Shown: piece after piece, positions 450 to 16,725 of the stretch
How positions within the stretch are numbered: position 1 is the first letter of the stretch
How the letters are laid out: every line of letters starts with the position of its first letter
DNA from: a bacterium
GTDB lineage: Bacteria > Babelota > Babeliae > Babelales > RVW-14
Length of the DNA stretch: 16,725 nucleotides
NCBI GenBank assembly: GCA_023249955.1
Contig: JAHFBR010000009.1
Location: forward strand, 1 to 16,725
Reading direction: 5' to 3'
Program-made: the position numbers and the translations under genes
The notes under the pieces: generated by a model
Told to the model about the DNA's origin: nothing
Database searches by the model: none
Seen by the model: the letters and a program-made list of their open reading frames with translations, nothing else

Positions 450-1853
450 ATGCACGATCAAAAGTCGTACTCGTTGAGGAATTTGTGGGGCATTAAGCCC
501 GAATATAGGTCCAAGGTGTTTTACCTTGCCCTAACCTTCCTTCTGATGATGTCCTGTCACGTCATCTGGAGGCCGCTCAAAATGGCGGTGTTCTCAAAAA
601 TGGTCGGTGCCTACCTGCTCCCTGACGCCAAACTTTACTCTCTCCTCTTTGTGATTCCACTTATTTTACTTTACTCCAAACTTGTTGACTGGCTTCGCCG
701 TCACCAATTGCTCTACTGCTTCACACTCTTTCACGCCTTTGGCGGTATCATTTTCACCTACTTCCTGGCTCACCCTGTTTACGGCATTGCAAATACCGAA
801 ATAAATTCAAACCGCTGGGTTGGATGGTGTTTTTACTTTTTCATGGAAAGTTTTGACGCCTTCCTTTCAACCACGTTCTGGTCATTTGCCGACTCGGTTA
901 ACAACCCTAAAGACGCTAAAAACTTTTACGGCTTTTTTGTCTCTGGATCAAAGATCGGGGGTATTATCTCTGCCGCTGCCCTTTATTTAGCCATCTCATG
1001 GACCAGTACGCAAAGCCAAACCCTGCTTTTACCGGGCGCACTTCTGGCCGGTAGCTGTATGCTCATGGCCGCCGCCTTTTCTATCCACAAACTCATCACC
1101 AATGTTTCAGATGACTGCATGCACGGCTACGAGGCTGCTTATCGACTCGAAAAAGACAAATCACAAACAAAGCAAAGCATCTGGAAAGCGGCAAAAAGCT
1201 CTATTGATGGGCTTCTTATTATGCTTAAAAATCCATATGTTTTGGGGATTTTCGCCCTGGTAGTATTTTACGAAATCATGATTGTAATCTTTGATTGGTG
1301 GGTTGCGCTACACGCTGATTCCATCATGCCATCGGTGGGCGCCATGACCGGTTACTATGCATTTTATTACTTTCTCATGAATTTAATCGGTCTTTTTATA
1401 TCGTTCTTTGGCACCACGCCGCTAATGCGTGTTTTTGGCATCCGCTTTTCACTGCTTTTGTTCCCCATCATGTGCCTTGGCTTACTGGGTATTACCTATC
1501 TCTTCCCAACAGCAAGCATCTTCTTTATTGTGTTGGTCGTGTTGCGGTCGCTCAATTACGCACTCAATCATCCAACGCGTGAAGTGCTTTATATTCCAAC
1601 AACAAAGGCTATTAAATTTAAAGCCAAGACATGGACCGACGCTTTTGGTTCTCGTATCGCAAAAAGCTTTGGCTCTATTTTTAATGTATCACTCAAAGGA
1701 GCATCTCCAGCATTTGCATTGCTCTCAAGCCTCAGCCTAAGCTTCGGCTTAACATTCCTGTGGATTATCATTGTATACTTCCTTGGTAAAACGCTTCAGG
1801 ACGCCATCGATCACAAACGTGTTATAGGACAAACAGAAGAATCAGAACTTTAG
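450..1853 (+). CDS. ATP/ADP translocase-family nucleotide transporter (NTT, first copy)
   Basis: This is a 467-residue polytopic membrane protein of the TLC/NTT family, which in intracellular bacteria and plastids exchanges or imports nucleotides across the inner membrane. About eleven or twelve hydrophobic segments span the protein. Family-like features are the RPLK motif near residues 41-44 in the first membrane segment (family members carry a functional Lys there), FWSFAD followed by a YGFF-GSKIGG stretch, and a conserved NHPTRE...KFKAKTW block late in the protein. The start at 450 is preceded by AGGAAAGAGGG at 434-443. It is followed after 26 bases by a paralog in the same orientation, probably one transcript. 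The seventh-segment region reads YEI...IFD rather than the NxxExxWK type of classic ATP/ADP carriers, so the substrate cannot be assigned. Confidence 0.85.
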   Translation: MHDQKSYSLRNLWGIKPEYRSKVFYLALTFLLMMSCHVIWRPLKMAVFSKMVGAYLLPDAKLYSLLFVIPLILLYSKLVDWLRRHQLLYCFTLFHAFGGIIFTYFLAHPVYGIANTEINSNRWVGWCFYFFMESFDAFLSTTFWSFADSVNNPKDAKNFYGFFVSGSKIGGIISAAALYLAISWTSTQSQTLLLPGALLAGSCMLMAAAFSIHKLITNVSDDCMHGYEAAYRLEKDKSQTKQSIWKAAKSSIDGLLIMLKNPYVLGIFALVVFYEIMIVIFDWWVALHADSIMPSVGAMTGYYAFYYFLMNLIGLFISFFGTTPLMRVFGIRFSLLLFPIMCLGLLGITYLFPTASIFFIVLVVLRSLNYALNHPTREVLYIPTTKAIKFKAKTWTDAFGSRIAKSFGSIFNVSLKGASPAFALLSSLSLSFGLTFLWIIIVYFLGKTLQDAIDHKRVIGQTEESEL

Positions 1854-6145: not shown

Positions 6146-7120
6146 ATGAAAAAATTTATTTATTTGTTTATTTTTGCCACGCTTGGCGTGCGCGCAAACA
6201 GTGGCTCTTTATTGGTCGAACCAGCAACGCCGCAGGGACGCGTCATTTTTATAACCGGCTCGTGTTCATCGGGCAAATCAACGCTCGCAAGAAATATCGC
6301 ACAAAACCTAAACGCCAAATATTTTGCATTCGACGAATATGTCATGCCTATCGTGCTCAAAAAAATGATCGCAACGCACGTTGGCAGCTTTTTTGCCTTC
6401 TTTTTAACAAAACTCCTCATGCATAATTTTTTTACATTGATCGGCTTTTTGAGCGACAAAAGAAAGTATGCTTTTCAGAAGAAATTTTATGCAGATCTGC
6501 AACGTGGCATTGCTATCGAGCCAACCATCAAAATGTACCGCGCAGCACGCAACGTCGCGCTCCAGGGCAAAGATGTCATTATCGAAGCCCCACTGCAACT
6601 TGGGGATAAGATTGACTGTTTAAGCAGCCTGTCGGTGTTACAAGATCTTAATGTGACACTCATCTTGGCCTACTGCCCCTGGGAGCAGCTTGTTGAAAGA
6701 ATCAAAACCCGCAATCAGTCGCGCTACAAAAAAAGTCATCGCGAACTGGACTGGGCGATTGGCAACTTCGTGCACTGCTTCAACGTTTCTACCAAGCACA
6801 CAACACGTGCAATAGATCGTATTCATGGCAACGTTGTACAACAATTTGTCACCACGCACACTCAGCCTGAGTACAAGAAAAAACGCTTGTATATCCTGAA
6901 TGAAACCAAAGAGGCAACACTACGGTGTTTTAAAACAGACCGCATGAATTATGTTTACCCACGCCTCGAATACGACCTGGTTGTTAATACTCAGACGTAT
7001 AACCCCAAACAAACAGCAACACGTGTTTTAAGCTTTATCAACAACAGATCCACTCAGACGTTCAAACAAAATATCCTCGCTAAGAAAGCACTTGTCCAAA
7101 TCAAGTTTTATTATACTTGA
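6146..7120 (+). CDS. Exported P-loop NTPase, kinase-like
   Basis: This 324-residue protein has a signal peptide: MKK followed by a hydrophobic run (residues 4-14) and VRA-NS as a likely cleavage site. A Walker A motif GSCSSGKST follows at residues 38-46. DEY (63-65) and IIEAPLQLGD recall chloramphenicol phosphotransferase and shikimate-kinase-like small-molecule kinases. CPWEQLVERIKTRNQSR looks like the lid region. The C-terminal third (about 220-324) is not recognised. I chose the ATG at 6146, seven bases after GGGGTGGG; an in-frame GTG at 6134 overlaps that site. An ATP-using enzyme with an export signal is unexpected, since periplasm lacks ATP. The last codons lie within a long hairpin. 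Substrate unknown. Confidence 0.75.
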   Translation: MKKFIYLFIFATLGVRANSGSLLVEPATPQGRVIFITGSCSSGKSTLARNIAQNLNAKYFAFDEYVMPIVLKKMIATHVGSFFAFFLTKLLMHNFFTLIGFLSDKRKYAFQKKFYADLQRGIAIEPTIKMYRAARNVALQGKDVIIEAPLQLGDKIDCLSSLSVLQDLNVTLILAYCPWEQLVERIKTRNQSRYKKSHRELDWAIGNFVHCFNVSTKHTTRAIDRIHGNVVQQFVTTHTQPEYKKKRLYILNETKEATLRCFKTDRMNYVYPRLEYDLVVNTQTYNPKQTATRVLSFINNRSTQTFKQNILAKKALVQIKFYYT

Positions 7121-7209: not shown

Positions 7210-10200
7210 ATGAAGCAATCGTTACGCAATCGTTATTCCATGAAAAATTTCTCTAAAATACTTGGCGCCGCACTTTTGGCAAGCGCGGTGGCTCTTTCAG
7301 GCAATGCAGCTACAACGCCAACCATAATAGAGGATCTTCTGGTCAAAACAGTTTCTGCACCGCAAAAAAACCCTCAAACGCTTGCAACCATCAAAGACCC
7401 TTGCGGACAGATTGAAGTCGACAGCAATGTAGCATTTCATCCGTACAGAAAAATGCTTATCAACACGATAGATCCGGTCAAGCTTGCTGTTCTTACTAAT
7501 GGCACTCAATCAACCAAGCTGGTGGAAGATGATGCTGGCGCTACCTGTTTTAGTGGCAATGTTGCAGTGATGCCGTGCGAAAGTATGAAAGTTGGTACGC
7601 AAGTACAAGTTATGCGCAGAAAGCTGCTGGTTAACGAAATTAATCCGGTCAAGTTTGATTTTTTGCTTGACGAAAATGGTGATAAAGTTCGTGACGCTTG
7701 CGCAAAAGTAGCGACCGGTCTAGGACAGTTTGTTAGAACGTGCGTGCCCGATGACAAGGGCGTCACCTGCTTTAGCGGCAATGCAGCAATGCATCCAAAC
7801 AAAAAATTTCTGGTTAATGAAATCAATCCGGTCAAGCTTTCTAAGGGAACCGGTTGTGATGCAGGAATTTACGTAGAGGACGATACTGACCAGGCAGTAA
7901 CAAAATTTAGCGGTAATGTTTATGTTGGTAACGGTAGAGATCTAACCGTGTCCGGTTCAGTAATACTACATGCCGCAATACTCAATGACAATGTAACGAT
8001 AGCTGTGGGCAAAAAACTGCTGACCAATGAAATTGATCCCACAAGTGGTGATGATACGCATTTCAGTGGCAATGTGGTGCTTGACGCTGGTAAATCACTA
8101 ACGCTAACCGGTTCAATAAGAGACACAAGTATTTATAATGCCCCACCCCTCTTGGCAAATGCACCCATATCATTGGGCATTGATTCAACGGGTGTCATTG
8201 GTACATTCGCAGTTGGTGCTGGTGGTGGAACATCGGCTAATAAGCCCTTCACACTGGTCCTGCGCGATGGCTCTGGCGACTTTGCAGCCGGCACAATAAC
8301 TGCGGAGACCGATCTTGTTGTAATCGGTAACCAATCAATCGGTGGTACACTTTTGGTTAATGAAATAGATCCAATAGCCGGTGATACCACACACTTTAGT
8401 GGCAGTCTTCATGTTGGTAACGGCCAAGATCTGACTGTCTCTGGCTCATCAACACTGCGTGGCGATGTATTAATACCAACAAGCAATCTGACCGTTGGCG
8501 GTACAACAGCGCTCAATGACAATGTAACCGTAGCAACGGATAAGACACTTTTTGTTAATGAGATCGATCCAACCAGTGGTGGTAGCACCCACTTTAGTGG
8601 CAATGTTCATGTTGGTAACGGCCAAGACCTGACGGTGTCTGGTTCATCGACACTGCATGGTGATGTGTCATTTGGTGGTGCATTATCATTCAATAACAAT
8701 GTAACGATAGCAACGGGTTCGACGTTGTTCACCAACGAGATTGATCCAACAAGTGGCGGTAGTACTCATTTTAGTGGCAATGTTCATGTTGGTAACTGCC
8801 AAGATCTGACGGTATCTGGTTCATCAACACTACGTGGTGATACAACAGTGGTCGAAGGCAGGACGTTGTTCACCAACGAGATTGATCCAACAAGTGGCGG
8901 TAGTACTCATTTTAGTGGCAATGTTCATGTTGGTAACTGCAAAGATCTGACCGTATCTGGCTCATCGACACTACGTGGTGGCGTGTTTACTAATGAGATC
9001 GATCCACTCGTCAGTGGTGGCAGCACACATTTTAGTGGCAATGTTCATGTGGGTAACTGCAAAGATCTGACCGTATCTGGATCATCGACCCTGCGTGGTG
9101 GCGTGTTTACCAATGAGATTGATCCACTCGTCAGTGGCGGCAGCACTCACTTTAGTGGGAATCTCCATGTTGGTAACGGCAAAGATCTAACCGTGTCTGG
9201 TTCATCAACACTGCGTGGCAACACAACAATAATCGCAGGCAAGACACTGTTTACCAATGAAATTGATCCGGTCGTCAGTGGTGGTAGCACTCACTTCAGT
9301 GGCAATCTCCATGTTGGTAACAGCAAAGATCTAACGGTATCTGGCTCATCGACACTGCGTGGTGGCGTGTTTACTAATGAGATTGATCCACTCGTCAGTG
9401 GCGGCAGCACTCACTTTAGTGGGAATCTTCATGTGGGTAACGGTAAAGATCTGACAGTGTCCGGCTCATCAACACTACGTGGTAACACCACCATAATCGC
9501 AGGCAAGACACTGTTTACTAATGAGATCGATCCGGTCGTCAGTGGCGGTAGCACGCACTTTAGTGGATCTCTCCATGTTGGTAACGGCAAAGATCTAACC
9601 GTGTCTGGCTCGTCAACACTACGTGGTAACACCACCATAATCGCAGGCAAAACATTGTTCACTGATGAGATTGATCCCACAACAAGTGGTGGTAGCACTC
9701 ACTTTAGTGGCAACCTTCATGTGGGTAACGGCAAAGATCTGACCGTGTCCGGTTCATCAACACTGCGTGGTAACACCACAATAGTCGCAGGCAAAACGTT
9801 ATTCACTAACGAGATTGATCCGACAAGTGGTAATAGCACTCACTTTAGCGGTCATCTCCATGTTGGTAACGGCAGAGATCTGACGGTTTCCGGTTCATCA
9901 ACACTGCGTGGTAACACCACCATAATCGCAGGCAAAACGTTGTTCACCAATGATATTGATCCCATCAGTCCGGCCGTCACAACACAGTTCAGTGGCAGTA
10001 TTAATCTCCCCGACACAACATCTGCCAATGCAGGATCACTACAAATTGGTGGGGCCAGATTTCTTCACAACTTTGGATCCGGTAATACATTTGTTGGATC
10101 TACAGCGGGTAATACTTCTATGACTGGTGGTGCTAATACCGCGCTTGGCCAAGGCGGTCTTTCTAAGACAACCACGGGTGTCTCCAATACTGCGGTTGGC

Positions 10201-10959
10201 CATAACAGTCTTTTTAGTCTAACTACGGCTAACGAGAATACCGCCATTGGCAGGTACAGTCTCCAGTCTATAGACACTGCCGGCAATGCAAATACCGCGA
10301 TCGGCTATGCCAGTCTTAATAATTTAGCCTCCGGTTACCGCAACATCGCCATTGGCTGGGAGGCGGGCGCAGATCTTACGTTAGCAGACCATTCCAATAT
10401 CGACATTGGCGACTTTGGAACGTCCGGAGATGTAGGGGTCATTCGAATTGGTACCGCCCTAGAACAAACTAAATGTTTTATTGCAGGAATTCGCGGGGTA
10501 ACAACGGGTGCTGCAGATGCCGTAGCCGTACTTATTGACAGCAGTGGCCAACTTGGCACCGTATCATCATCACGTCGCTACAAAAAAGATATAAAGGATA
10601 TGGCATTTACAGAACGCCTTGCCAAACTACGCCCCGTTAACTTCGTTTACAAGACTGATGAGTCAGAAACTATACAGTACGGATTGATAGCCGAAGAAGT
10701 TGCGGAAGTGTTCCCAGAACTGGTCATCTTCAATCCTGATGGAGAGCCAGAAACAGTGCGCTACCACGACTTGGCTGTCATGCTTTTGAATGAGTATCAA
10801 AAACAACAGAAACAACTGGATCTTCAAAGTATGAGCACTGCCGAATTGCTGGATCGCCTTGCGGTGGTTGAGGCACTGCTGGCTCAGAAACAGGATCCAA
10901 GCCTTACCGATTTGTTGACTCGTCTTGCACAAGTTGAGGCGCTGTTGGCTCAAAAATAA
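7210..10959 (+). CDS. Giant exported repeat protein with YadA-like head and C-terminal S74 chaperone domain
   Basis: This 1249-residue protein is probably a cell-surface or secreted fibre. A signal peptide (basic start, hydrophobic residues 17-30, SGNAA-T cleavage region) leads into Cys-containing repeats (about 50-230). An array of units follows to about residue 920 with consensus HFSG-LHVGNGKDLTVSGSS and LFTNEIDP; I count 12 LTVSG and 16 NEIDP-like motifs. Residues about 955-1075 have NTAIG/NTAVG repeats like YadA head domains. SSRRYKKDI near 1120 begins a chaperone-of-endosialidase (S74) domain, which in phage tail fibres trimerises and may cleave itself off. The end is a duplicated heptad segment (RLAxVEALLAQK twice). 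The start at 7210 has AGGAG eight bases upstream. Role in host adhesion is inferred. Confidence 0.85.
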   Translation: MKQSLRNRYSMKNFSKILGAALLASAVALSGNAATTPTIIEDLLVKTVSAPQKNPQTLATIKDPCGQIEVDSNVAFHPYRKMLINTIDPVKLAVLTNGTQSTKLVEDDAGATCFSGNVAVMPCESMKVGTQVQVMRRKLLVNEINPVKFDFLLDENGDKVRDACAKVATGLGQFVRTCVPDDKGVTCFSGNAAMHPNKKFLVNEINPVKLSKGTGCDAGIYVEDDTDQAVTKFSGNVYVGNGRDLTVSGSVILHAAILNDNVTIAVGKKLLTNEIDPTSGDDTHFSGNVVLDAGKSLTLTGSIRDTSIYNAPPLLANAPISLGIDSTGVIGTFAVGAGGGTSANKPFTLVLRDGSGDFAAGTITAETDLVVIGNQSIGGTLLVNEIDPIAGDTTHFSGSLHVGNGQDLTVSGSSTLRGDVLIPTSNLTVGGTTALNDNVTVATDKTLFVNEIDPTSGGSTHFSGNVHVGNGQDLTVSGSSTLHGDVSFGGALSFNNNVTIATGSTLFTNEIDPTSGGSTHFSGNVHVGNCQDLTVSGSSTLRGDTTVVEGRTLFTNEIDPTSGGSTHFSGNVHVGNCKDLTVSGSSTLRGGVFTNEIDPLVSGGSTHFSGNVHVGNCKDLTVSGSSTLRGGVFTNEIDPLVSGGSTHFSGNLHVGNGKDLTVSGSSTLRGNTTIIAGKTLFTNEIDPVVSGGSTHFSGNLHVGNSKDLTVSGSSTLRGGVFTNEIDPLVSGGSTHFSGNLHVGNGKDLTVSGSSTLRGNTTIIAGKTLFTNEIDPVVSGGSTHFSGSLHVGNGKDLTVSGSSTLRGNTTIIAGKTLFTDEIDPTTSGGSTHFSGNLHVGNGKDLTVSGSSTLRGNTTIVAGKTLFTNEIDPTSGNSTHFSGHLHVGNGRDLTVSGSSTLRGNTTIIAGKTLFTNDIDPISPAVTTQFSGSINLPDTTSANAGSLQIGGARFLHNFGSGNTFVGSTAGNTSMTGGANTALGQGGLSKTTTGVSNTAVGHNSLFSLTTANENTAIGRYSLQSIDTAGNANTAIGYASLNNLASGYRNIAIGWEAGADLTLADHSNIDIGDFGTSGDVGVIRIGTALEQTKCFIAGIRGVTTGAADAVAVLIDSSGQLGTVSSSRRYKKDIKDMAFTERLAKLRPVNFVYKTDESETIQYGLIAEEVAEVFPELVIFNPDGEPETVRYHDLAVMLLNEYQKQQKQLDLQSMSTAELLDRLAVVEALLAQKQDPSLTDLLTRLAQVEALLAQK
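8386..9965 (+). repeat. Tandem coding repeats of 144/141 and 120 bp
   Basis: In-frame repeats within the giant gene. Long units of 144 bp (48 residues; 141 bp in some) carry the insert NTTIIAGKTLFT, and short units of 120 bp (40 residues) have RGGVFT instead. Spacing measured between AGCACTCAC/AGCACTCACTT landmarks at 9142, 9286 and 9406 gives 144 then 120 bp. Units differ mostly by synonymous changes and a few residue swaps, indicating duplication followed by drift. This is a protein-coding array, not CRISPR. Confidence 0.9.
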
Positions 10960-12485: not shown

Positions 12486-12520
12486 CCAGGTAAAGAGACC
12501 CACAAACCATGGAGCCAATT

Positions 12521-13558
12521 ATGCTGGTTATTTTTCTAACACTACTTTTAGGAACGACCATGACATTACACGCTGCTGATACAACAGAAGTTGCAACCTT
12601 TGCCGGTGGATGCTTCTGGTGCGTTGAAGCTTCATTTAAGGCGATGCCAAAGATCACCGTTACCAGTGGATACACCGGTGGCAGGGAACCAGATCCAACC
12701 TACCAGGACTATGCTGACAAGGGACATGTCGAAGCTATACAAATCACCTATGACCCCAGCAAGACAACCTATAATCAACTCCTGGACATGTTCTGGCGCC
12801 AGGTTGACCCAACCGATGCCGGAGGACAATTTGCAGATCGTGGACCACAATACCGCTCGGTCATTTTTTATCATACCGATAAGCAAAAGGAGCTAGCTAC
12901 CGCATCTAAAGAGGCATTAGAAAAATCAGGACGCTTTGCAAAACCTATCGTCACCGAAATTATTAAAGCCGCACCATTTTATCCTTCTGAAGAGTATCAT
13001 CAGGACTATGCCAAAAAAAATCCAACACGCTATAAACTTTACCGTGCATTCTCGGGAAGAGATCAATTTTTAAAAAAAGCATGGGCAAAAAAGCCACAAC
13101 AATGCCCACTCCCCGCATCAGGCTATAAAAAACCTTCAGACAAAGAGCTACGCCAAAAACTTACTCAGCAGCAGTATAATGTCACCCAAAAACAAAAAAC
13201 CGAGGCTCCATTCACCAATGAATACTGCGATAACAAACGGCCTGGTATTTACGTCGATGTTGTCTCTGGCGAACCACTCTTTTATTCTGATGATAAATTT
13301 GATTCCGGCACCGGTTGGCCAAGTTTTACCAAACCTTTAGAACAGGACAATATCGTTACTAAAAAAGACCGTGGATGGTTCACCACAAGAACTGAAGTGC
13401 GCAGCAAACACAGCGATTCACACTTAGGACATGTTTTTAAAGATGGACCAGCACCAACAGGATTGCGCTATTGCATCAATTCGGCAGCCCTCAGGTTTAT
13501 TCCCGTCGAGGATTTGGAAAAAGAGGGATACGGGAAATACAAAAAGTTGTTTGAATAG
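12521..13558 (+). CDS. msrAB: Exported bifunctional methionine sulfoxide reductase MsrA-MsrB
   Basis: The fusion reduces both S- and R-methionine sulfoxide in oxidised proteins. The 345-residue protein starts with a hydrophobic signal-like segment ending HAADT (residues 1-20), so it should act outside the cytoplasm and need an external reductant. The MsrA domain (about 22-185) has GCFWC at 30-34 with catalytic Cys31; Cys195 may be a resolving cysteine. The MsrB domain (about 205-345) has GTGWPSF (263-269), HLGHVF (301-306) and catalytic Cys318 in RYCINSA. The zinc CxxC pairs of many MsrBs are missing (VDVVSG and RSKHSD instead). I chose 12521 because GGAG lies six bases upstream; an ATG at 12509 is an alternative adding four residues. 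Confidence 0.92.
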
Positions 13559-14747: not shown

Positions 14748-15716
14748 TCATGCTACCGCTAATCGACGTTTAAGCTCTGGCAACCATTTATGAATAAAAG
14801 TATTTTTCTCGTGATTAAGATCTTGCAACTTCTGCATAAGCACCGCAAGATTCTCTTCATCCATAATACGCTTACGCCGAGCAAACTTCACCGTGTGCAA
14901 GAAATCTTCTGCACGGGTCCAATAATGGTTAATACAGATTCGGTCAACCTGAATAGGCTGCCGACAGGCATCGATATGTTCCCGTGGAATTGAATAAAAT
15001 CCTGGATAGTGCTCGTCTACAATATGAATTTGAAATTTTTTTACAGCACGTGGCCTAACGACTGATTTTACCTGAGCATTATCAATATCCTTCGGCATTT
15101 TCATGACACCATTAGCAGCTGGATAATAATTCCAAGGTGCTTTAAAAATCAGGCTTTCTATCATCAATTTTCCAGGAGGAATACAGGGCAAATTGGATGT
15201 ACCATACAGCTGCCAATTGATTTTTATTGCTCCAACTTCAGGCTTGCTGTCGTAATCCTTTAAAAAGGCTACAAGATTTTCTCTATCCAGCGGAACAATG
15301 AATTCATCAATATCAATAACCGCCAACCATTGCACATCATCTTTACACTGCTTGATGCAGTGATTGTAAGCCTTCATTTGGTCTGACATCCAGGCTTGAA
15401 CACTAGGTGCACAAGGCCAATCGGTAAGTTCAACCACATTTTGAGCAATGTAGGGAGTAAGAACTTCTAAATAATTATCAGTGCTGCCATTGTTGTAAAG
15501 ATAAAAATGCTCAACCCCTTGAATACGATGATACTCAATCCACTCTTTCAGATACGGAGCCTCATTCTGGAAAAAGGCACAGGCGGCAAGATAGTAGCGG
15601 TATTTTTTTGGTTCTGGTTGCTGAGTGATATTAACCGCTGCACTCATGACATAGTGCCCAAACAATAATGGAATCACCGCTAACAAAAATATTTTTGATA
15701 CAAATCTTCTGTTCAT
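14748..15716 (-). CDS. Exported or membrane-anchored GT92-like glycosyltransferase
   Basis: This 322-residue protein resembles family 92 (DUF23) / GT2-like glycosyltransferases, which transfer a sugar from a nucleotide sugar. Residues 44-81 hold the typical FFQNEAPYLKEWIEYHR and FYLYNNGSTDN blocks. IDIDEF (134-139) supplies the DxD-type metal and nucleotide-sugar site, and HYWTR near residue 266 is the conserved C-terminal motif. The N terminus (basic MNRR, hydrophobic residues 9-24, MSAA) is a signal peptide or membrane anchor, so the catalytic domain would be outside the cytoplasm. GGAGAG seven bases upstream supports the ATG at 15716. Donor and acceptor are unknown. It is divergent from the acetyl-CoA synthetase gene. 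Confidence 0.82.
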   Translation of the reverse strand: MNRRFVSKIFLLAVIPLLFGHYVMSAAVNITQQPEPKKYRYYLAACAFFQNEAPYLKEWIEYHRIQGVEHFYLYNNGSTDNYLEVLTPYIAQNVVELTDWPCAPSVQAWMSDQMKAYNHCIKQCKDDVQWLAVIDIDEFIVPLDRENLVAFLKDYDSKPEVGAIKINWQLYGTSNLPCIPPGKLMIESLIFKAPWNYYPAANGVMKMPKDIDNAQVKSVVRPRAVKKFQIHIVDEHYPGFYSIPREHIDACRQPIQVDRICINHYWTRAEDFLHTVKFARRKRIMDEENLAVLMQKLQDLNHEKNTFIHKWLPELKRRLAVA

Positions 15717-15744
15717 AATATCTCTCCAAAAAACCCAGACCCTT

Positions 15745-15773
15745 TTGTTCTTTTTTTTTATTACGGGTATAAC
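15745..15773 (+). promoter_or_regulatory. Promoter of the acetyl-CoA synthetase gene
   Basis: TTGTTC at 15745-15750 and TATAAC at 15768-15773 with a 17-base spacer. Transcription from about 15780 would include the upstream ATG at 15814 that encodes the lipoprotein signal, supporting its use. Confidence 0.5.
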
Positions 15774-15813
15774 TGTGGGGTGTTGTGCATCATTTTAACA
15801 TTTTGGGTGAACT

Positions 15814-16725
15814 ATGAAACGTATTTTGTGGGTGGGGATCATTGTAGCATTAGGGGGTTGTGGTGGTGAACAGACAACATCAAATCACACGGAGAACAAA
15901 ATCATGCGACCAGCGTTAGACATAGAAAGCATCAAAACATTTTGGCATGAACAGGCAGAAAAACTTTCGTGGTCCAAAAAATGGGACAATACGCTTGAAT
16001 GGAATCCGCCCTTTGCCAAGTGGTTTGCTGGCGGCGAGCTAAATGCGTCATACAACTGCCTCGACGTCCATCTACAGGGACCACGCAAAGATAAAGTTGC
16101 CATCCTCTGGGAAGATGAGCTAGGCAACACACAACAGGTAACGTATCAACAGCTGTTTGCAATGACCAACCAGTACGCCAGCGTACTGCAAAACCTTGGC
16201 ATCACCAAAGGCGATATTGTCATGATTTATCTTCCCATGACACCACAAGCTGCAGCCATGATGCTTGCGTGTGCACGCATCGGCGCCACACATTCCGTGG
16301 TATTTTCTGGCTTCAGCAGTCAGTCGCTTCAAGATCGCATTGCCGATACCCAAGCAAAAGTTGTTATCACTGCTGATGCCGGCCTGCGCCGCGGCAACAA
16401 GATTTGGTTGAAAAAAATTGTTGATGATGCTGTTGCACAATCACCGTCGGTCAAGCATGTTTTGGTCATCAAACGCTTTGATGACGCCATCGACATGGTT
16501 GCAGGACGTGATACCTTTTTACACGATGAATTGCTCAAAGCCAAAGACTTTGTTGAGCCGGTACCCGTAGAATCAACGCATCCATTATTTATCTTGTATA
16601 CCTCCGGCACCACGGGAAAACCAAAGGGATTAATGCACTCCACCGGCGGTTATTTGACCTATGCTCGCTCAACATTCTTGTGGGCATTTGCTCCCGATGA
16701 GGCATCAGTTTATTGGTGCACTGCC
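15814..16725 (+). CDS. acs: Acetyl-CoA synthetase (AMP-forming) with lipoprotein signal peptide, partial
   Basis: The gene runs off the window (304 codons seen; family length about 650). Acs makes acetyl-CoA from acetate, ATP and CoA and is normally cytosolic. Family blocks are clear: NASYNCLDVHL, YLPMTPQAAAMMLACARIGA, SVVFSGFSSQSLQDRI, the adenylate motif YTSGTTGKPKG (residues 262-272) and YWCTA at the edge. The frame is open back to an ATG at 15814 encoding MKRILWVGIIVALGGCGG: basic start, hydrophobic core and lipobox LGGC with Cys16, predicting a lipidated exported enzyme. GGGTG lies a few bases upstream. An internal ATG at 15904 (residue 31), with GGAG nine bases before it, would give a conventional cytosolic Acs; both starts may be used. 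Confidence 0.9.
   Translation, partial: MKRILWVGIIVALGGCGGEQTTSNHTENKIMRPALDIESIKTFWHEQAEKLSWSKKWDNTLEWNPPFAKWFAGGELNASYNCLDVHLQGPRKDKVAILWEDELGNTQQVTYQQLFAMTNQYASVLQNLGITKGDIVMIYLPMTPQAAAMMLACARIGATHSVVFSGFSSQSLQDRIADTQAKVVITADAGLRRGNKIWLKKIVDDAVAQSPSVKHVLVIKRFDDAIDMVAGRDTFLHDELLKAKDFVEPVPVESTHPLFILYTSGTTGKPKGLMHSTGGYLTYARSTFLWAFAPDEASVYWCTA

Follow-up and report, generated by a model that had tools for sequence, protein, structure and literature searches.

The AMP-forming acetate–CoA ligase Acs (TIGR02188; structures 8rpk, 1pg4 and 2p2f) is normally a cytosolic enzyme. ATP-dependent enzymes relocated by an N-terminal signal are known in mitochondrial ACSS1, which is targeted to the organelle, and in the periplasmic ATP-dependent DNA ligase LigE. 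The Acs described here has the same domains and catalytic motifs as ordinary Acs and differs from it by an in-frame lipoprotein leader ahead of the domain. ACSS1 and LigE differ from it in compartment or in enzyme, and neither is a lipoprotein Acs. The leader resembles those of lipoproteins with a type II signal (the Lgt/LspA pathway) in its charged n-region, its hydrophobic core, its LGGC lipobox and a Gly at +2; the difference lies in the protein behind it, an ATP- and CoA-dependent ligase. Large predicted secretomes have been described for Dependentiae, which share the probable phylum and the lifestyle of the bacterium studied here: a signal was assigned to 44% of the CDS of Chromulinavorax destructans (PMC6561590) and to 79 of the 126 ankyrin proteins of Babela massiliensis (PMC4378268). 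The passages describing these secretomes put the emphasis on ankyrins, peptidases, nucleases and proteins without known function and name no exported Acs (PMC6561590, PMC4378268), and the word 'acetyl' does not occur in the latter text (PMC4378268). Searches of the open-licence PMC literature, a coverage that mostly excludes subscription journals, returned nothing on an Acs exported across the inner membrane, and nothing was found there on a secreted glycosyltransferase in Dependentiae.

The DNA analysed (hereafter the window) is the whole of a 16,725-base contig (C71) from a 1.06 Mb genome in 141 contigs, estimated as 86% complete (G000). The acs reading frame occupies 15814..16725 on the forward strand and is open at the contig end. 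The features used below were the following.

450..1853, forward strand: Tlc-type ATP/ADP transporter (PF03219, E 1.8e-18).
6146..7120, forward strand: CPT-like P-loop kinase (PF07931, E 4.9e-9), with a signal-peptide-like N-terminus by the SP rule.
14748..15716, reverse strand: glycosyltransferase of family 92, divergent from acs (PF01697, E 9.1e-32), with a signal-peptide-like N-terminus, MNRRFVSKIFLLAVIPLLFGHYVMSA, by the SP rule.
15745..15773, forward strand: weak promoter-like pair, TTGTTC (15745), 17 nt, TATAAC (15768), with 8 of 12 matches counted by hand.
15805..15810, forward strand: GGGTGA, possible ribosome site for the 15814 start, including the in-frame TGA.
15814..15903, forward strand: 30-codon leader with n-region MKR, hydrophobic core ILWVGIIVAL, lipobox LGGC and a linker rich in Ser, Thr, Asn and Gln (SPII by the hand-written rule).
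15859..15861, forward strand: codon of Cys16, the predicted lipidated residue.
15891..15894, forward strand: GGAG, possible ribosome site for an internal start at 15904, 9 nt before that ATG.
15904..16725, forward strand: Acs core from Met31, with ACAS_N and part of the AMP-binding domain, open at the contig end; the C-terminal half lies on contig C22.

Translation from the ATG at 15814 gives MKRILWVGIIVALGGCGGEQTTSNHTENKI, followed by Met31-RPALDIESIKTFW. The first residues, MKRILWVGIIVALGG and then Cys, make up a canonical type II signal that shares its frame with Acs. The whole leader, MKRILWVGIIVALGGC GGEQTTSNHTENKI, stands ahead of Met31 and the Acs N-terminus; ACAS_N starts at residue 37 and the AMP-binding domain at residue 91. 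An in-frame TGA (15808-15810) lies one codon ahead of the ATG and makes 15814 the earliest start possible. An earlier note on this DNA had read an in-frame lipoprotein signal ahead of acs, and this was confirmed in all its elements (MKR, core, LGGC with Cys16, linker), with a similar leader in a related protein, P0122. Its two candidate starts were also recovered, each with a possible ribosome site: GGGTGA, which ends 3 nt upstream of the ATG, before 15814, and GGAG before 15904. The 'good promoter' that it placed upstream of acs was overstated: a consensus promoter scan of the forward strand from 15717 to 15814 listed none, which leaves the weak pair given above. A second copy of the leader was searched for in the same genome and none was found.

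The matching C-terminal half of Acs was located at the end of contig C22 (G000:C22:5363-6298). The window piece covers positions 15-288 of TIGR02188 and the C22 piece positions 314-628, with the ACAS_N, AMP-binding and C-terminal parts in order; scored singly, each piece falls below the curated cut-off of 724.95 bits. When joined, they contain the four catalytic motifs sought (YTSGTTGKPK, DTWWQTE, GRADEVLNIAGHRVG and PKTRSGKIMRR), the lysine of the C-terminal PKxxSGKIxRR included. The joined core is 80% identical to P0122 over 576 columns, and P0122 itself matches 8rpk_A with E 1.7e-189. Because the joined pieces carry all four motifs and this identity to P0122, they most likely represent one ordinary-looking Acs split by the assembly. 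No second acs was found in the 86% complete genome; the scores of its other AMP-binding frames, located on C24 and C27, are far lower. Lgt (PF01790, contig C72, 153.1 bits) and LspA (PF01252, contig C39, 102.8 bits) are both encoded in this genome. The bacterium probably belongs to Dependentiae/Babeliales, since P0131 ('Candidatus Babeliales bacterium', order Babeliales) is among the nearest tree rows of the window Acs after P0122 and the window encodes a Tlc ATP/ADP transporter.

The rate at which such a leader arises by chance was estimated by dinucleotide shuffling of 15717-15903. An in-frame type II signal appeared in 22 of 20,000 shuffles, and a signal-like leader of whatever type in 371 of 20,000. 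With about 1000 genes per genome (an estimate), this rate is not negligible for the window leader taken alone, and the relatives decide. Signal-like N-termini are also common in the same genome: 61 of 140 sampled ORFs had one by the hand-made rule, a count that includes membrane proteins and at least three false positives by eye. The strict lipobox version of this hand-written rule passes 4 of 239 proteins, the window protein P0001 among them.

Relatives were sought at the protein level. A scan of the contig collection with P0001 as query found no relative. The first protein search accepted only lengths between 0.55 and 1.75 times 304 residues, which placed full-length relatives outside it, and no leader scored among the 120 matches listed, which cover at most 94% of the query. 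In the full-length protein search, 8000 candidates were scored and the best 120 were listed. The closest protein among the matches listed was P0122 (73% identical), which has the leader MKYIMVLISSVAIFGG followed by Cys, a linker and then Met-KPALD. The window and P0122 leaders align with a score of 25, which was reached by none of 2000 shuffles; against the other 61 N-termini scored as signal-like in the sample from its own genome, the window leader reached at most 16, below the value for P0122. Lipobox leaders were also found in P0124, in P0132 and in P0125, P0126 and P0129. The last three have a Cys at -3 and fail the first, stricter rule; they were added when the rule was relaxed to allow this residue after they had been seen. 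In total, 7 proteins (P0001, P0122 and these five) carry a lipobox leader among 313 scored of 314, and P0122 and the other five are protein-database entries with predicted starts.

All seven lipobox proteins sit in one 28-row part of the tree, which was built without L079 and L080, both partial loci, and without P0156, a near-copy. The window Acs groups with P0122 (100/100) and P0125, P0126 and P0129 group together (100/100), while P0124 and P0132 fall with P0123 and P0240. The latter two, close kin of P0132, are listed as leaderless from the internal Met of P0132. Leader-bearing Acs do not form one clade: the tree requires at least three changes for the lipobox and at least two for type I signals. 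The four catalytic motifs are intact in the nine other signal-bearing Acs. The hydrophobic N-termini of P0151 and P0155 were rejected as conserved signals, as their close kin L004 and L061 have a stop there and no lipobox is present.

At the DNA level, acs was found in 20 of 101 phylum genomes (E up to 1e-60). For acs inside and outside the phylum, and for serS and aspS, every start in the open frame ahead of the domain was judged by a single rule. Of 23 phylum acs loci, 22 were used (L078, the C-terminal half of the window's own acs, was left out). A leader was detected in 4 of these 22: SPII in the window and SPI in L064, L072 and L081. For comparison, 80 acs loci placed outside the phylum by their record titles were taken as the best of 246, one of them labelled only 'bacterium' and one only 'archaeon'. 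The same rule detected a leader in none of these 80, though the open upstream stretch is longer there (median 59 residues, against 22 in phylum acs loci). The rule also gave 0 of 30 for phylum serS and 0 of 30 for aspS (the 30 best-scoring of 95 genomes each). No signal-like leader was present in the remaining 18 phylum acs loci, among them those of the same-family genomes G003, G006, G007 and G008. In leaderless G007, acs can begin only at a GTG that corresponds to Met31 or at either of two ATGs that closely follow this codon. Among the loci examined, leaders are specific to Acs of the phylum, but they are a minority. The comparison with close relatives proposed in the earlier note pointed both ways: G007, of the same family, lacks the extension, which counts against the reading, but the closest relative found, P0122, has the leader.

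These data bear on the reading that the leader is a chance in-frame extension, with the true start at Met31 and a wholly cytosolic Acs. The shuffle rate for type II signals makes about one such gene per genome unsurprising, and leaderless G007 would fit. P0151 and P0155, with the frame of their kin L004 broken by a stop, illustrate that gene callers can add hydrophobic upstream stretches. The similar leader kept in P0122, the five further lipobox leaders and the score of 0 in 140 control loci under the same rule argue the other way, and we regard a chance extension as unlikely. The signal goes beyond chance, the closest relative found retains its form, and it turns up repeatedly in the phylum; the genome also encodes Lgt and LspA. 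As a sequence-based assignment, the lipoprotein signal itself is well supported, and the leader, its recurrence, the intact catalytic motifs, Lgt and LspA and the signal-bearing neighbours can all be read from the sequence.

The explanation that we favour, and consider probable, is that the window acs encodes a lipoprotein Acs and that, in this phylum, Acs was sent across the inner membrane on several occasions, perhaps for access to host ATP and CoA. For this protein, we infer export in vivo, lipidation, location, the source of the substrates, the use of the product and the existence of two forms. Translation from the ATG at 15814 would yield a Sec substrate, in which Cys16 would be lipidated by Lgt and the leader cut by LspA. 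A lipid would then anchor the otherwise intact Acs to the outer face of the inner membrane or, once it had been sorted, on the outer membrane. Sorting of lipoproteins by the +2 residue is an E. coli rule, and the outer-membrane option is retained because this residue is Gly and not Asp. A different placement would follow if the leader were a membrane tether that keeps Acs on the cytosolic face, near transporters such as Tlc. The long N-terminal hydrophobic stretch of P0291, which is not scored as a signal, speaks for such tethering, and the lipobox Cys or type I cleavage site that follows the hydrophobic core in 10 Acs speaks against it, as does the processing of lipobox proteins outside; we hold a tether to be very improbable. 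The stretch in P0291 (residues 1-30) is perhaps a membrane anchor or perhaps reflects a wrong start.

Dual targeting overlaps with the favoured explanation. Here the leader would be used, most Acs would be cytosolic and made from Met31, and the lipoprotein would be a minor or regulated form. Several observations agree with it: Met31 has GGAG 9 nt upstream, a Met stands at the matching place in P0122 (KIKMKPALD), P0132 retains the listed start Met of its kin P0123 and P0240, leaderless G007 can start at the codon matching Met31, and a single acs was found in the 86% complete genome. The internal Met may instead be a relic of the ancestral start. We give dual targeting slightly less than an even chance. 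Under the lipoprotein reading, too, the retained Met31 start with its GGAG would probably still give some cytosolic enzyme from the single-copy gene.

Two genomes, G005 and G099, have two acs each, one copy with a type I signal and the other without. The signal-bearing second copies, L081 (G005) and L072 (G099), are sisters in the tree (100/99), though they come from different families. Neither has an ATG, GTG or TTG between signal and domain, so that translation beginning close to the domain cannot supply a leaderless form; the window acs and L064 do have internal ATGs in this interval. In these four genes, the pattern fits dual forms from one gene in single-copy genomes and a division of labour between paralogues in two-copy genomes. 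L072 (G099:C1) also has about 250 extra C-terminal residues with a weak GNAT match (PF13508, E 0.18). This C-terminal piece had no PDB match by sequence, and its single-sequence AlphaFold model had a mean pLDDT of 36.

The genes around acs were examined in the window and at other signal-bearing loci. In addition to the glycosyltransferase and the kinase listed above, the window encodes a signal-bearing protein of 1239 residues (7240-10956), probably a surface protein, in which THFSGN/HVGNGKDLTVSGSSTLRG repeats are numerous and a Peptidase_S74 chaperone domain lies at the C-terminal end. It also encodes an MsrA-MsrB fusion (12509-13558) with an N-terminus that looks signal-peptide-like by eye. 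The L081 Acs closes a run of eight same-strand genes (L225:1208-11478, G005:C11) that includes two GT2, one GT4 and a UDP-glucose 6-dehydrogenase (TIGR03026, 427 bits). Of the seven other genes, six were scored as carrying a signal, that of the GT4 being poor-looking, and L225:2391-3659 does not score. This run resembles a cluster for glycan synthesis located outside the cytosol. No such cluster was seen among the neighbours scanned of the signal-bearing Acs of G099 and G096. In G034 (L227:5401-7818, G034:C22), a leaderless acs is immediately preceded on its own strand by a GNAT acetyltransferase ORF.

Other signal-bearing enzymes were sought in the genome of the window. The own-genome sample, the window included, contains 41 signal-like proteins of at least 180 residues with at most one further membrane span; 27 were scanned against Pfam, and the 14 others include the three false positives by eye. 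Nine of the 27 fall in families whose members use nucleotides or other cofactors: an ATP-dependent DNA ligase, three methyltransferases, a PLP enzyme, a pyridine-nucleotide oxidoreductase, a GT28 C-terminal domain, the GT92 and the CPT-like kinase. The DNA ligase with its signal-peptide-like N-terminus is at L050:328-2259 (G000:C20), and three SAM methyltransferase-like proteins with similar N-termini are at L043:5275-6883 and L052:45-932 (G000).

Acs export would then be one case of a recurrent habit of the phylum, in which normally cytosolic, cofactor-using enzymes are put behind Sec signals. In the periplasm or a host-facing space, Acs would turn host-derived ATP, CoA and acetate into acetyl-CoA, and this product could support exported acetyl transfer or glycan work, or be taken up. 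Since an intracellular bacterium with Tlc must receive host nucleotides at its inner membrane, periplasmic ATP is plausible; periplasmic CoA is less certain, as it is a larger molecule. That acetyl-CoA serves there to acetylate exported glycans or proteins is a guess prompted by the neighbouring genes. More broadly, and tentatively, ATP-, CoA-, SAM- and nucleotide-sugar-dependent metabolism might run partly outside the inner membrane on host cofactors, with exported Acs feeding the acetylation of exported glycans or proteins. Genomes with a single acs might then produce both the exported and the cytosolic enzyme by using two starts, and genomes with two copies might split the jobs between paralogues. 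If the favoured explanation is true, energy-parasitic bacteria could export enzymes to cofactors rather than import every cofactor. The large secretomes of the phylum would then read differently, and one gene with one short leader would offer a testable case.
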